From NCBI RefSeq assembly GCF_000092125.1, contig NC_014212.1, forward strand, positions 2,876,279 to 2,940,278: a stretch of 64,000 bases of DNA, read 5' to 3'. Below are positions 18,424 through 26,622 of the stretch, one piece after another. Numbering within the stretch: position 1 is the first letter of the stretch; each line of letters begins with the position of its first letter. The stretch comes from Allomeiothermus silvanus DSM 9946 (lineage in GTDB: Bacteria; Deinococcota; Deinococci; Deinococcales; Thermaceae). The translations under genes were made by a program, and so were the position numbers. The notes below the pieces were generated by a model, which did no database searches, had not been told where the DNA came from, and saw nothing but the letters and a program-made list of their open reading frames with translations.

Positions 18424-18440
18424 TTATGTCTTTGACATAT
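18424..18440. promoter_or_regulatory. 17-bp palindrome resembling the Deinococcus RDRM
   Basis: TTATGTCTTTGACATAT has the arm pattern of the radiation/desiccation response motif TTATGT-N5-ACATAA, with one outer base off. It lies between the divergent holin-like gene (68 nt from its start) and the XRE-S24 gene (108 nt from its start). A related site is at 23228-23244. Confidence 0.5.
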
Positions 18441-18528: not shown

Positions 18529-18547
18529 AGAGATGAAGGGAGCCATT

Positions 18548-19258
18548 ATGCCACTACCCCATTGGGCCAGCGCTATTCGGGAGCGCCGCCGGGAGTTGGG
18601 CAAGTCGCAGAACCGCATCGTAGGGGAATCCGAGGGGCGGCTCAACCAAACTGAACTCTCGCGGCTCGAGCGGGGGCTAATCCACCCCACCTTGGACCTC
18701 AGCACCGCCAAGCTCCACGCCCTGCTGGAAGCCCTGGAGTGGAGCCCCAGCGATTTCGCCGAAGCCACCCGGCTCGAGTACCCTGGCCTTCCCGCACAGG
18801 TCTCGGAGCAGATGCGGCGGATCGAGGTACAGCCGGAGTGGCAGGCCTTTGCGGTGTATGGCTCGGTCTCGGCGGGGGCAGGGGAATCCGAGCCTTTGGA
18901 GGGGGAGTCCATCGCCATCCCCGCCGAAATCCTGAGACGGAAAGGGGTCAAGCCGCAAAACGTACGGGTGTACTTGGTCAACGGCGACTGCATGATCTCG
19001 GAGGGGGCTAGCCGCCAGGAGAAAAGCATCGCCCCCGGCGACTACATCGCGGTGGACCGGGGCCGCCGGGCAGTGAGCGGGGACATCGTGGTGGCCTGGT
19101 GGCCGCGGGAGGAAAAGCTGGTGGTCAAGCGTTACAAGGTGGAAAAAGAGGGCATCCGCCTCTACCCCACCCAGCCTGCTCATCCGGTACTGGTGCTGGG
19201 GCTCGAGGAAGACCTCTATATCATCGGGCCGGTTTTCTGGAGAGGTGGGGGAATTTAA
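18548..19258 (+). CDS. XRE-family HTH repressor with S24 (LexA-like) domain; Cys in place of the nucleophilic Ser
   Basis: Residues ~5-70 are an XRE helix-turn-helix (RERRRELGKSQNRIVGESEG, TELSRLERG). The C-terminal half aligns with LexA/CI peptidases: a possible self-cleavage site Ala-Gly in GSVSAGAGESEP, the nucleophile region LVNGDCM where LexA has a Ser in GxSM, and the base Lys in KLVVKRY. Such repressors cleave themselves during DNA damage when RecA filaments form. Here Ser is Cys, which could give a thiol nucleophile or an inactive, stable repressor. I prefer ATG 18548 (GGGAG 8 nt before) over ATG 18533. It is divergent from a holin-like gene across a damage-box-like palindrome. Confidence 0.8.
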   Translation: MPLPHWASAIRERRRELGKSQNRIVGESEGRLNQTELSRLERGLIHPTLDLSTAKLHALLEALEWSPSDFAEATRLEYPGLPAQVSEQMRRIEVQPEWQAFAVYGSVSAGAGESEPLEGESIAIPAEILRRKGVKPQNVRVYLVNGDCMISEGASRQEKSIAPGDYIAVDRGRRAVSGDIVVAWWPREEKLVVKRYKVEKEGIRLYPTQPAHPVLVLGLEEDLYIIGPVFWRGGGI

Positions 19259-21083: not shown

Positions 21084-21110
21084 AAAGACGTGTTCGCTAC
21101 GCGAAGCATC
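21084..21110 (+). repeat. P1 hairpin repeat, intergenic copy
   Basis: A 27-bp unit AAAGACGTGTTCGCTACGCG-type, identical to the first unit of the array at 22566-22700. Confidence 0.8.
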
Positions 21111-21220: not shown

Positions 21221-21937
21221 TCAGACCGCTTTGGCAGCCCTTACCAACCGCACTAGCGGGGTGACCTTGTAGACTTCTACTAGCCGCTTATAGCGTCGGT
21301 TCTTGGTTTCGGGGTCCTCCCACACTTCGGTCTTGAGCGCTCCTTCGATGAACACCTGAGCCCCTTTCTTCAGCTCGTGGCGTTGTTTCCCCGAACGGAG
21401 TGAGGGGAGGAAGCGCTTGGCAGCGTCACCCCAGGCCTCGAGTTCGACATAATGCTGTTTGGCCTGACTCTGCGCCGTGTCCCAGGTGGAGAAACCCAAC
21501 TGAACCTTGGCGATGGGGGTGCGCATAGCACTTTGCCGCATCTCGGGGTCGGTGGTGAGACCGCCCATCAAGAAGACTCGGTTGTCGGCCCCGTAGAGTA
21601 CCGGCCCCTTGGACTCCTCGTGCACGTCGGCCTCCTCGAGCCGGTGCAGTTCGTCGCCCACGATCCGGATACGCGAGGCCTTCTTGCCATCCGCACCCTC
21701 CCAGCTTTCGTACTCGAGCCGACCGCTGGCCTGGTAGGCGGCCCCTTCGGCCAACTGCTCCGACCAGGATTCGGCCAGCTGTCCGTAAAAGGTGAGGTCG
21801 GCGCGAAAGAAGACCTGTTGTTCTCCAGCAGCCCGCTTCCCCACCAAGGAAACCTCCAGGATCGGGGTGCCCTTGGGAGTATAGCGCAATTCGTGGCGGC
21901 TCAACGCGCCGCTGACGATGAGTAAATTGGCTCCCAT
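21221..21937 (-). CDS. SSB-like protein with two OB folds, no acidic tail, and a repeat insertion
   Basis: A 238-aa protein, ATG 21937 with AGGAG upstream. Two OB-fold SSB units are visible as in Thermus and Deinococcus SSB: residues 1-110 (LIVSGALSRHELRYTPKGTPILEVSL) and 125-230 (NRVFLMGGLTTDPEMRQS, VELEAWGDAAKR, KKGAQVFIEGALKTEVW). It ends LVRLVRAAKAV, without the acidic D/E-D-x-L-P-F tip that SSB uses to recruit partners. In the second OB fold, between strands, a P2 repeat inserts about a dozen residues (FLPSLRSGKQR). It is the last gene of a three-gene leftward operon. Likely binds single-stranded DNA as an accessory SSB; not the housekeeping SSB. Confidence 0.75.
   Translation of the reverse strand: MGANLLIVSGALSRHELRYTPKGTPILEVSLVGKRAAGEQQVFFRADLTFYGQLAESWSEQLAEGAAYQASGRLEYESWEGADGKKASRIRIVGDELHRLEEADVHEESKGPVLYGADNRVFLMGGLTTDPEMRQSAMRTPIAKVQLGFSTWDTAQSQAKQHYVELEAWGDAAKRFLPSLRSGKQRHELKKGAQVFIEGALKTEVWEDPETKNRRYKRLVEVYKVTPLVRLVRAAKAV
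21377..21413 (-). repeat. 37-bp P2 repeat inside the SSB-like gene
   Basis: Read on the plus strand it begins GTGGCGTTGTTTCCCCGAAC and ends GGGGAGGAAG, aligning without gaps to the P2 unit at 17106-17142. It is in frame and codes FLPSLRSGKQRH on the minus strand. Confidence 0.8.
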
Positions 21938-21950
21938 TTCTTTCTCCTGA

Positions 21951-22412
21951 TTAGGCCGCGCCCTGGAGTTTCTCGTGGAGATAGACCACGGCTTTGCGGG
22001 CCTCGAGGCGGGTAAAGGTACCGGGATCCGCAGGCTCGGCGATCCCCATCTGCCGGTAATCCTCAGGCCGCATGTACTGGAAGGCAAACCCAGCGTAGCG
22101 CTGGTCGGCCTCGCCGTGCAGGGCTACGGGCTCGTTCTGGGTGGCCTCGAGTTCGTGTACCCACGCCTCGAGCTGGGCGAGGGCTTCTTGGGCTTGGGCC
22201 TCGCTTATCGCACCGAAGGAACGGAGGGTCTGGTAGTACCCTTCCACCGCGTCGCCCAGGATGTAGCGGCGCTCGAGGGCCTCGTTGAGTAACAGCGCAT
22301 ACTTGGCCCGGATTTCGATGTTCTTTTCCACCGTCACCTGCGGGGGGTAGATGAAATACCCGCACTCGCGAGGGACCACGATACGGGTGCGGGTTTTGAG
22401 GCGCGGGATCAT
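21951..22412 (-). CDS. Hypothetical protein in the SSB-like operon
   Basis: A 153-aa protein I do not recognise. It opens with a basic segment (MIPRLKTRTRIVVPRECGYF), then is mostly helical and charged (EKNIEIRAKYALLLNEALERRYI; EAQAQEALAQLEAWVHELEA). No membrane segment, signal or metal motif is visible. It sits 13 bp upstream of the SSB-like gene, so the two are very probably co-transcribed and may act together on DNA. Confidence 0.6.
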   Translation of the reverse strand: MIPRLKTRTRIVVPRECGYFIYPPQVTVEKNIEIRAKYALLLNEALERRYILGDAVEGYYQTLRSFGAISEAQAQEALAQLEAWVHELEATQNEPVALHGEADQRYAGFAFQYMRPEDYRQMGIAEPADPGTFTRLEARKAVVYLHEKLQGAA

Positions 22413-22493
22413 AGATTCTCCGTGAGGGTCAATCTCTGCCGGTGGATCGCGTCAAGGTCTGGATTGCGACGATGCTTGGTGCCAAACACGAGC

Positions 22494-23042
22494 CTATGCG
22501 GCCATCGGGGCTTTGCACCTTTCCAGCCACAGCAGAAATTCGGCCATGAGTTGCTGGGCATCCTTAAAGACGTGTTCGCTACGCGAAGCATCAAAGACGT
22601 GTTCGCTGCGCGAAGCATCAAAGACGTGTTCGCTGCGCGAAGCATCAAAGACGTGTTCGCTGCGCGAAGCATCAAAGACGTGTTCGCTGCGCGAAGCAAC
22701 CAACCGGGTCAGGGGGTCGGGCTGGGCCGCCTGCCAGGCTCCGCGCTCGGCCTTGAGCGCTTCCAGTGTCTCCTCGCGGGTCAGGGTGTACATCTTGCGC
22801 TCGCGTCGGTCGAGCAGGAAAAAGCTGGCGGATTGGGCGGTGTGGTTGACGAGCCCCTTGACGCTAGGGTGAGCGGCCCATAAGAGGTAGGCCCAGGTGT
22901 TGGCCGAGCCCGACTCGAGGCCATCGTCGTACATCAATTGCCCGCTGTGGGGGTCATAGTAAAACACCACGCGCGGAGCCTGGCCGGGGTAGCCGAAGAT
23001 GGTTTCCAGTTTAGGGTGGATGGGTAGCTCGAGCTTTTTCAT
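22494..23042 (-). CDS. Hypothetical protein with five tandem SRSEHVFDA repeats
   Basis: A 182-aa protein, first gene of the SSB-like operon. Residues 1-115 form a compact alpha/beta domain (PRVVFYYDPHSGQLMYDD, SASFFLLDRRERKMYTLTREE) that I cannot assign. Residues ~117-161 are five copies of a 9-residue unit SRSEHVFDA, coded by five tandem 27-bp P1 repeats (22566-22700), followed by a helix AQQLMAEFLLWLERC. The repeat is almost certainly a later insertion between the domain and the C-terminal helix. Function unknown; linkage suggests DNA metabolism. Confidence 0.6.
   Translation of the reverse strand: MKKLELPIHPKLETIFGYPGQAPRVVFYYDPHSGQLMYDDGLESGSANTWAYLLWAAHPSVKGLVNHTAQSASFFLLDRRERKMYTLTREETLEALKAERGAWQAAQPDPLTRLVASRSEHVFDASRSEHVFDASRSEHVFDASRSEHVFDASRSEHVFKDAQQLMAEFLLWLERCKAPMAA
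22566..22700 (-). repeat. Five tandem 27-bp P1 hairpin repeats inside a gene
   Basis: Units start at 22566, 22593, 22620, 22647 and 22674. Each carries a TTCGC-TGC-GCGAA stem-loop. Units 2-4 are identical; unit 1 differs by one base in the loop and unit 5 at its end. The period keeps the frame. Single P1 copies occur at 17072-17099 and 21084-21110 and a diverged one near 54273-54302. Confidence 0.95.
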
Positions 23043-23205
23043 GGTTTTGTCCGTTCGGGGTTCTTCTTTAGAGACTTTAGGTTCCGGTCGCCCGAGTCGC
23101 CGAGTTCGATGGTTTGGGCCACCTTCCTCTTGCTTCCCAACCTGCTATTACATATCAGGGTTGGTTGATTTAGTTTATAACGTAATACCCCTTTTGTCTA
23201 CCCCA

Positions 23206-23244
23206 TTGGCATATCTCATCTATTTTATTATGTTTTTGACATAA
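23206..23244 (+). promoter_or_regulatory. Promoter overlapped by an RDRM-like 17-bp palindrome
   Basis: TTATGTTTTTGACATAA (23228-23244) has complete TTATGT/ACATAA arms. A -35 TTGGCA (23206-23211), 17-nt spacer and -10 TATGTT (23229-23234) place the box on the -10 element, 10 nt before ATG 23255. This is a classical repressor position. It resembles the Deinococcus DdrO operator. Confidence 0.6.
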
Positions 23245-23254
23245 TTCAAGGACG

Positions 23255-23533
23255 ATGACCGAACCCCTCAAGGATCTGATCTCTGCGGAGCCACCGGAGA
23301 CCCTGGATGTTGAGGAGCCCACCCCGGCCCTGGCTCGTTTCTTGCTCGAGGCCCCCAACCCCGAGCTGCACCTGCTCTACAAGGCCATGAGCTACTTCCT
23401 GGCCGAGGGCGATTATGACCTGGACGAGCTGGCGCAGGCGACTACCCTGCACCGGATGATCGGGCGCGAGGTCGAGCGACGGTTGCGCCAAGCGTCATGG
23501 CCAGCAGGTGAGGAAACCGAACTACCTTTTTAG
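23255..23533 (+). CDS. Small protein ending in an SSB-type acidic tip (ELPF)
   Basis: A 92-aa acidic, helical protein ending WPAGEETELPF. The final residues match the C-terminal interaction tip of Thermus/Deinococcus SSB (acidic residues then LPF), which binds repair and replication partners. The body (LARFLLEAPNPELHLLYKAMSYFL, DLDELAQATTLHRMIGREVERRL) is not an OB fold. It is divergent from the operon encoding a tail-less two-OB SSB-like protein, and its promoter carries an RDRM-like box. A plausible idea is that it supplies the missing tip or competes with SSB for partners. Not recognised as a known family. Confidence 0.6.
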   Translation: MTEPLKDLISAEPPETLDVEEPTPALARFLLEAPNPELHLLYKAMSYFLAEGDYDLDELAQATTLHRMIGREVERRLRQASWPAGEETELPF

Positions 23534-26239: not shown

Positions 26240-26622
26240 CGGCTATTGACATCTTACGGTTAGAGGGAGGCGTATTTACCCCGCTGCAGGGCGAGAGAAG
26301 CATCTCGCGGCGCTAGCCGGGTGGCGTATTTTCGCGGCGCTAGCCGGGTGGCGTATTTTCGCGGCGCTAGCCGGGTGGCGTATTTTCGCGGCGCTAGCCG
26401 GGTGGCGTATTTTCGCGGCGCTAGCCGGGAGGCAAGAAAAGAGGCCCCGCGAAGCGGGATCGGTCTAGGGCGACCTAGAGCGGTTCCCACGAATACTCGG
26501 TACAGCGGGGTTTGCTAGGCCGAGTACATTACGTGAGGCGTAATGGTGGGAAACGCGATAAGCAAAAAAAGCTGCCCGGGCACCCCGAGCAACTCGAGAA
26601 GGTCGGGTTGGGCCGCCCGAGG
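26240..26622. other. Intergenic region, 383 bp, with a repeat array
   Basis: No convincing gene. It holds the four-unit 27-bp array (26323-26430) with a degenerate unit before it (26269-26322), an inverted repeat ACTCGG/CCGAGT near 26495-26525 and a small palindrome ATTACG-TGAGG-CGTAAT near 26528. Short frames here on both strands merely translate the array. Confidence 0.6.
26323..26430 (+). repeat. Four tandem 27-bp hairpin repeats (P2-derived), intergenic
   Basis: Units start at 26323, 26350, 26377 and 26404 and are identical but for the last base. Each begins GGCGTATTTTCGCGGCGCTA and ends GCCGGGT, with a CGGC-GCTA-GCCG stem. In the plus frame they would read AYFRGASRV, closely like the AYFRRAQRGV units inside the rhamnulose aldolase gene. 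Confidence 0.95.

Follow-up and report, generated by a model that had tools for sequence, protein, structure and literature searches.

A tip-less SSB-like protein and a separate SSB-type acidic tip protein encoded in a probable IrrE/DdrO-controlled module of Thermaceae

Introduction

The window, which is the whole stretch of 64,000 nucleotides from Allomeiothermus silvanus DSM 9946 analysed here, contains a locus that encodes an SSB-like protein without an acidic tip and, on the other strand, a small helical protein that ends in one. We think it somewhat probable, from sequence comparison and structure prediction, that this locus is an IrrE/DdrO-controlled module of Thermaceae in which a tip-less SSB is accompanied by a separate helical tip protein that serves as a recruitment subunit. 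In a typical SSB, a single polypeptide coats ssDNA and, by way of its tail, brings in at least a dozen repair proteins. Whether these two jobs can be controlled separately is difficult to study, since simply deleting the tail is not an option. In this locus the two jobs appear to have been divided in evolution between two transcripts, both predicted to be damage-inducible. The radiation-response regulon known from Deinococcus would also gain a module that is specific to Thermaceae and includes two protein families not described before. The literature searched contains no account of this locus, and nothing relevant on a separate SSB-tip protein. The features of the locus are as follows.

21221..21937, minus strand: SSB-like protein of 238 aa with two OB folds and without an acidic tip (PF00436; PDB relatives; orthologs)
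21951..22412, minus strand: 153-aa protein related to a 376-aa protein but with an internal deletion (alignment with G002, G003 and G019)
22494..23042, minus strand: 182-aa protein without an assigned family, encoded by the leading gene of the operon and retained together with the tip protein
22566..22698, no strand: 27-bp tandem repeat of ~4.9 copies, in frame within the 182-aa gene (Tandem Repeats Finder)
23169..23185, minus strand: TTACGT-TATAA-ACTAAA, RDRM-like operator of the SSB operon (PWM)
23228..23244, minus strand: TTATGT-CAAAA-ACATAA, exact RDRM 10 bp upstream of the tip gene's ATG (PWM, genome search)
23255..23533, plus strand: 92-aa helical protein with the SSB-type acidic tip EETELPF (orthologs; AlphaFold2 model; dN/dS)

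The SSB-like protein

The window genome (G000) comprises 3.72 Mb in three contigs. On the minus strand the operon runs from the 182-aa gene (23042-22494) through the 153-aa gene (22412-21951) to the SSB-like gene (21937-21221), with the 92-aa gene divergent from it. The start of the SSB-like gene is best placed at the ATG at 21937 (238 aa) and not at the called TTG (288 aa). PF00436 matches its product with E=3.6e-29, with two SSB domains and two matches in the locus, and its PDB relatives are the SSB chains of T. thermophilus, T. aquaticus and D. radiodurans. The protein finishes LVRAAKAV, without the [LI]PF acidic tip, at the point where the housekeeping SSB of the same genome runs on to EDFPPEEDLPF, and because this C-terminal tip is absent it is classed as SSB-like rather than as a complete SSB. 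Orthologs are found in 17 of the 22 non-Thermus genomes of the family, with 62-73% identity, and all those read to their ends are tip-less, finishing in ..KAA or ..RAA. The four ORFs and the two-OB protein lacking a tip are as an earlier, sequence-only reading of this DNA had described them.

The closest SSB-like paralog, on G002 C9, ends in its own tip (..FPPEEDLPF), showing that tips are easily gained or lost, and no tip protein lies close to two tip-less SSB paralogs on Calidithermus contigs (G002 C8 and G003 C157). These three cases speak against a simple story in which the tip moved to another protein. Additionally, the window genome encodes a third SSB (L045; C3, ~18 kb, 124-kb contig), which ends EEEEEALPY, a tip with Y for F.

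The 92-aa tip protein

The family of the 92-aa protein counts six intact members from three genera of Thermaceae, 38-42% identical outside the genus, and the terminal LPF is unchanged in all six, as are one glutamate four residues before LPF and a preceding proline. The endings EETELPF, EEADLPF, EEEALPF, QETPLPF and EETPLPF show the acidic stretch and the terminal hydrophobic-P-F of the SSB-Ct motif, and even the decayed gene of G020, with its stops and frameshift, still finishes GESPLPF. The EETELPF ending is more than chance, since endings of the type [DE]x0-4[LIVMF]PF-stop are confined to the tip family and to true SSBs among ~2,490 ORFs (323 window ORFs of at least 60 aa and 2,165 in 25 related loci). 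The sequence-only reading was right to liken this ending to the Thermus/Deinococcus SSB tip, given how the housekeeping SSB ends. It had also staked itself on two observations taken together, a variable ending and a tip gene occurring without the operon; the ending is conserved, and the combination that would have refuted it does not occur. Its proposal of an ssDNA-handling module is supported: the module and the tip are conserved, and the SSB-like orthologs are all tip-less.

Pfam, NCBIfam and PHROG give no convincing match for the 92-aa protein. Its AlphaFold2 model contains three confident helices (residues 24-32, 35-50 and 56-81) between disordered ends, with a low-confidence C-terminus, an arrangement that would leave the tip available for docking. 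Because the protein is predicted to be all-helical, it is, on this model, not an OB fold, as had been claimed from the letters. The small subunit of ExoVII, the top Foldseek match, was rejected as its fold, since E=1.1 leaves at most the likeness of a helical hairpin. Against the nearest species (G001), the tip gene has a dN/dS of 0.44 over 92 codons; the values for the 182-aa gene (0.18) and the adjacent helicase gene (0.20) are lower, and thus selection is present, not strong.

On genome contigs, relatives are found only in Meiothermus granaticius, Calidithermus roseus, C. chliarophilus and a Thermaceae MAG; a pattern-based scan, by which very divergent relatives could be missed, found none on genome contigs outside Thermaceae, and none were found among phage, plasmid and viral contigs. 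The phylum set comprised 111 genomes and seems to be without Deinococcus, because DdrB is rare there. In Meiothermus and Calidithermus the tip gene is followed by the gene of an uncharacterised ~80-aa protein (MRRLIIELE...FRYTPAP; L053, L054, L051, L052 and L060), which is missing from the window genome and has a paralog at L101:9875-10108, on a contig of 83 kb (G002 C9) that is phage- or plasmid-like.

Companion genes of the tip gene

Of the 22 non-Thermus genomes, seven have an intact 182-aa gene, and these are exactly the ones with the tip gene, which is itself intact in six and cut by a contig end in one (G019). Neither gene stands intact alone in any genome (together in 7/7); outside the seven, the 182-aa gene is decayed or absent, with nothing but remnants left in three further genomes. 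The SSB-like gene shares the locus with the tip gene in five of the six genomes having an intact tip gene, and 11 of its 17 genomes have no intact tip gene. The reverse is seen in G001, where the tip and 182-aa genes are intact, the 153-aa gene lies at a contig edge with a decayed start, and neither the SSB-like nor the 153-aa gene was detected elsewhere in this 99%-complete genome. A strict SSB/tip pairing is ruled out by the 11 genomes and by G001. The sequence-only reading had proposed to check whether the four genes occur together; the SSB-like gene does often share the locus, and the constant companion is the 182-aa gene. Judging from co-retention, the most promising pair would be the tip and 182-aa proteins, which the SSB-like protein often joins, although these are raw genome counts, uncorrected for phylogeny, that a few clustered losses could explain.

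The same counts bear on an alternative that we consider doubtful, according to which the tip and 182-aa proteins form a functional unit recruiting one specific repair enzyme and the SSB-like protein is merely a neighbour in the regulon. The inseparability of the two genes, the SSB-like genes without an intact tip gene, and G001, which holds only these two, are all what such a unit would produce; it fits poorly with the presence of the SSB-like gene in the same locus in all but one of the intact-tip genomes, and the losses behind the pattern are few and clustered in the phylogeny.

In the case of the 182-aa protein, orthologs are 57-60% identical to the G002 copy and no fold relative was found (model pLDDT 69; best PDB match E=0.15, TM 0.2). 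The 27-bp repeat (GACGTGTTCGCTGCGCGAAGCAT..) encodes five ASRSEHVFD units in this protein, and the orthologs are without it; a single 27-bp unit lies at 21087 and a different 27-bp array at 26305-26433. The 153-aa protein aligns, in its start (MI..L.TRTR) and its residues 18-148, with a 376-aa protein of G002, G003 and G019. PF18897 (Gp3-like) matches the 376-aa form in these three genomes (1.4e-24), and it has no match in the 153-aa protein or anywhere in G000, so that by alignment the 153-aa gene has lost, in frame, an internal stretch that is almost exactly the PF18897 domain. Elsewhere the gene has been shortened separately in G011 and lost completely in G005, making it the least stable member. 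Both proteins had been called unknown, which holds for the 182-aa family and gives way, for the 153-aa protein, to a remnant of the Gp3-like one.

RDRM operators and the DdrO/IrrE circuit

An AT-rich palindrome is present as two RDRM-like copies in the intergenic stretch of all seven module loci. The published RDRMs of D. radiodurans include TTATGTCAAAAACATAA at ddrC and TTCTGTTCTAAACTAAA at ddrA (PMC8533742), and that of its ssb is TTATGTCATTGACATAA (PMC1978522). The RDRM of the tip gene is letter-identical to the ddrC site. The RDRM of the SSB operon (TTACGTTATAAACTAAA) is degenerate, has the same right arm as the ddrA site, and overlaps a -10 TAAACT (23177-23172) that stands 17 bp after a -35-like TAGACA (23200-23195). 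With a PWM built from other genes only, and 5,000 simulated intergenic regions as background, the tip-gene site scores 30.3 bits, the best in the 64-kb window and above all simulated regions, and the SSB-operon site scores 17.6 bits, the third best in the window, compared with a simulated 99th percentile of 13.4; no RDRM was found at the housekeeping ssb, where the best score is 5.0 bits. Only three exact TTAYGTNNNNNACRTAA sites exist in the whole genome, at the tip gene, at gyrA and in an AraC/DUF1801 region, and allowing one mismatch gives 16 sites versus 3 with the reversed pattern.

One-mismatch RDRMs stand upstream of ruvB and ddrO, and relatives have sites at gyrA, gyrB, ruvB and ddrO; as predicted operators, these match the published RDR regulon. 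The genome encodes a DdrO ortholog of 130 aa, with a full-length match to DdrOC structures (4e-56), and an M78/IrrE-type peptidase at 2973206, ~1.4 kb from the ddrO operator, which is a putative IrrE by position and family. This finding agrees with the reported presence of IrrE and DdrO in Meiothermus and Calidithermus, not Thermus (PMC8072749). Taken together, the operators, DdrO and the IrrE-type peptidase indicate that the locus is very probably an IrrE/DdrO-controlled DNA-damage module. The separate and regulated recruitment proposed in the sequence-only reading is thus sustained in its second adjective, with RDRMs on both promoters, and not in the strict SSB/tip partnership that it implied.

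Other sites were seen outside the module. An RDRM-like TTATGTCTTTGACATAT at 18424-18440 (22 bits, the window's second best) lies ~90 bp before an HTH/Peptidase_S24 (LexA-like) repressor gene (18533-19258, plus strand), whose homolog in G003 also has an RDRM (TTACGTCATGAACATAA), and a link between the DdrO and S24-repressor circuits is possible. An exact RDRM lies near a DUF1801-type gene at G000:C1:1011713 (L105), with an AraC-type regulator between them, and in G003:C119 (L108), making this gene a candidate new DdrO target. The idea that the module replaces DdrB was rejected, as DdrB is on the second replicon of G000 and scattered, in a pattern that is not complementary.

Proposed mechanism and alternative readings

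In unstressed cells, DdrO bound to the two RDRMs of the shared intergenic region would repress both divergent promoters; upon DNA damage, IrrE would cleave DdrO and both transcripts would rise. Derepression of both promoters is suggested by the operators, by homology and by established knowledge of the regulon. The first transcript would supply the 182-aa protein, the Gp3-like protein (a remnant here) and the accessory two-OB SSB, which would cover ssDNA with a tail of its own unable to recruit partners. The second would supply the small helical protein, whose flexible C-terminal tip would dock in the SSB-tip pocket of at least one SSB partner, the candidates being RecO, RecQ, PriA and primase. 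Docking in SSB-partner pockets is the most likely role of the tip as judged from its ending, and the protein bearing it is most likely a separate recruitment subunit, which would deliver a partner either to the accessory SSB or to the 182-aa protein. Only tentatively do we go further and suggest that SSB has been taken apart under DdrO/IrrE, into a tip-less SSB and a free tip on an unrelated fold, with recruitment set independently of coverage. As the operator of the tip gene has the sequence of a proven DdrO site, short proteins and peptides would allow its regulation and the docking of the tip to be examined at the same time.

It is unlikely that the tip protein is instead a damage-induced decoy, filling the SSB-tip pockets of RecO, RecQ, PriA and ExoI and thereby uncoupling these partners from the housekeeping SSB, with the tip-less SSB covering ssDNA without recruiting. 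A small helical protein with a free tip can do without an OB-fold partner, and the tip loss across the whole accessory SSB family, like the retention of the tip gene without an SSB-like gene in G001, would suit such a protein. However, a monomeric tip would be a poor rival to a multi-tip SSB unless abundant, and we prefer an adaptor to a decoy, which would explain neither the conservation of the helical part nor the tie between this gene and a second one, the 182-aa gene.

That an acidic helical protein ends in LPF by coincidence, and that the module is no more than an ordinary prophage remnant that became domesticated, is very improbable: the Gp3-like family of phage-type recombination directionality factors, the ~80-aa neighbour's paralog and the decay of several copies would fit it, but LPF is invariant despite ~60% sequence divergence, ~2,500 other ORFs have no such ending apart from SSBs, every intact locus keeps its RDRM operators, dN/dS indicates purifying selection, and a present function is compatible with a mobile-element origin. 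Such an origin is made possible by the phage-type domain and by the paralog on the phage- or plasmid-like contig, and, as a guess, a mobile element may have been the source of the module.

Comparison with known systems

The SSB-like protein resembles the two-OB SSBs of Thermus and Deinococcus (PDB 2cwa, 2fxq and 1se8) in having two SSB domains per chain, its residues 2-225 to 2-230 being matched, and differs from them in being without linker and acidic tip; it is 34-35% identical to the housekeeping SSBs. Moreover, its gene is predicted to be RDRM-controlled in the window genome, whereas the housekeeping ssb is not. The tip protein shares with the SSB-Ct, whose partners are RecO, PriA, ExoI and others, the acidic residues, the terminal LPF and the flexible end; the difference is that here they are carried by a helical non-OB protein from a different transcript. 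The likeness to Gp3-like recombination directionality factors (PF18897) lies in the 376-aa orthologs of G002, G003 and G019, and the domain has been lost from the window copy.

The closest regulatory parallel is found in the RDR regulon of Deinococcus (DdrO, IrrE and RDRM, with ssb, gyrA, gyrB, ruvB, ddrA and ddrB), with which the window genome shares RDRMs, DdrO, an M78 peptidase, sites at gyrA, gyrB, ruvB and ddrO, and an operator identical to that of ddrC. The ssb gene of Deinococcus belongs to this RDRM-controlled regulon (PMC1978522; PMC8533742), and thus Deinococcus regulates ssb itself, whereas here the predicted targets are an accessory SSB and a separate tip protein.
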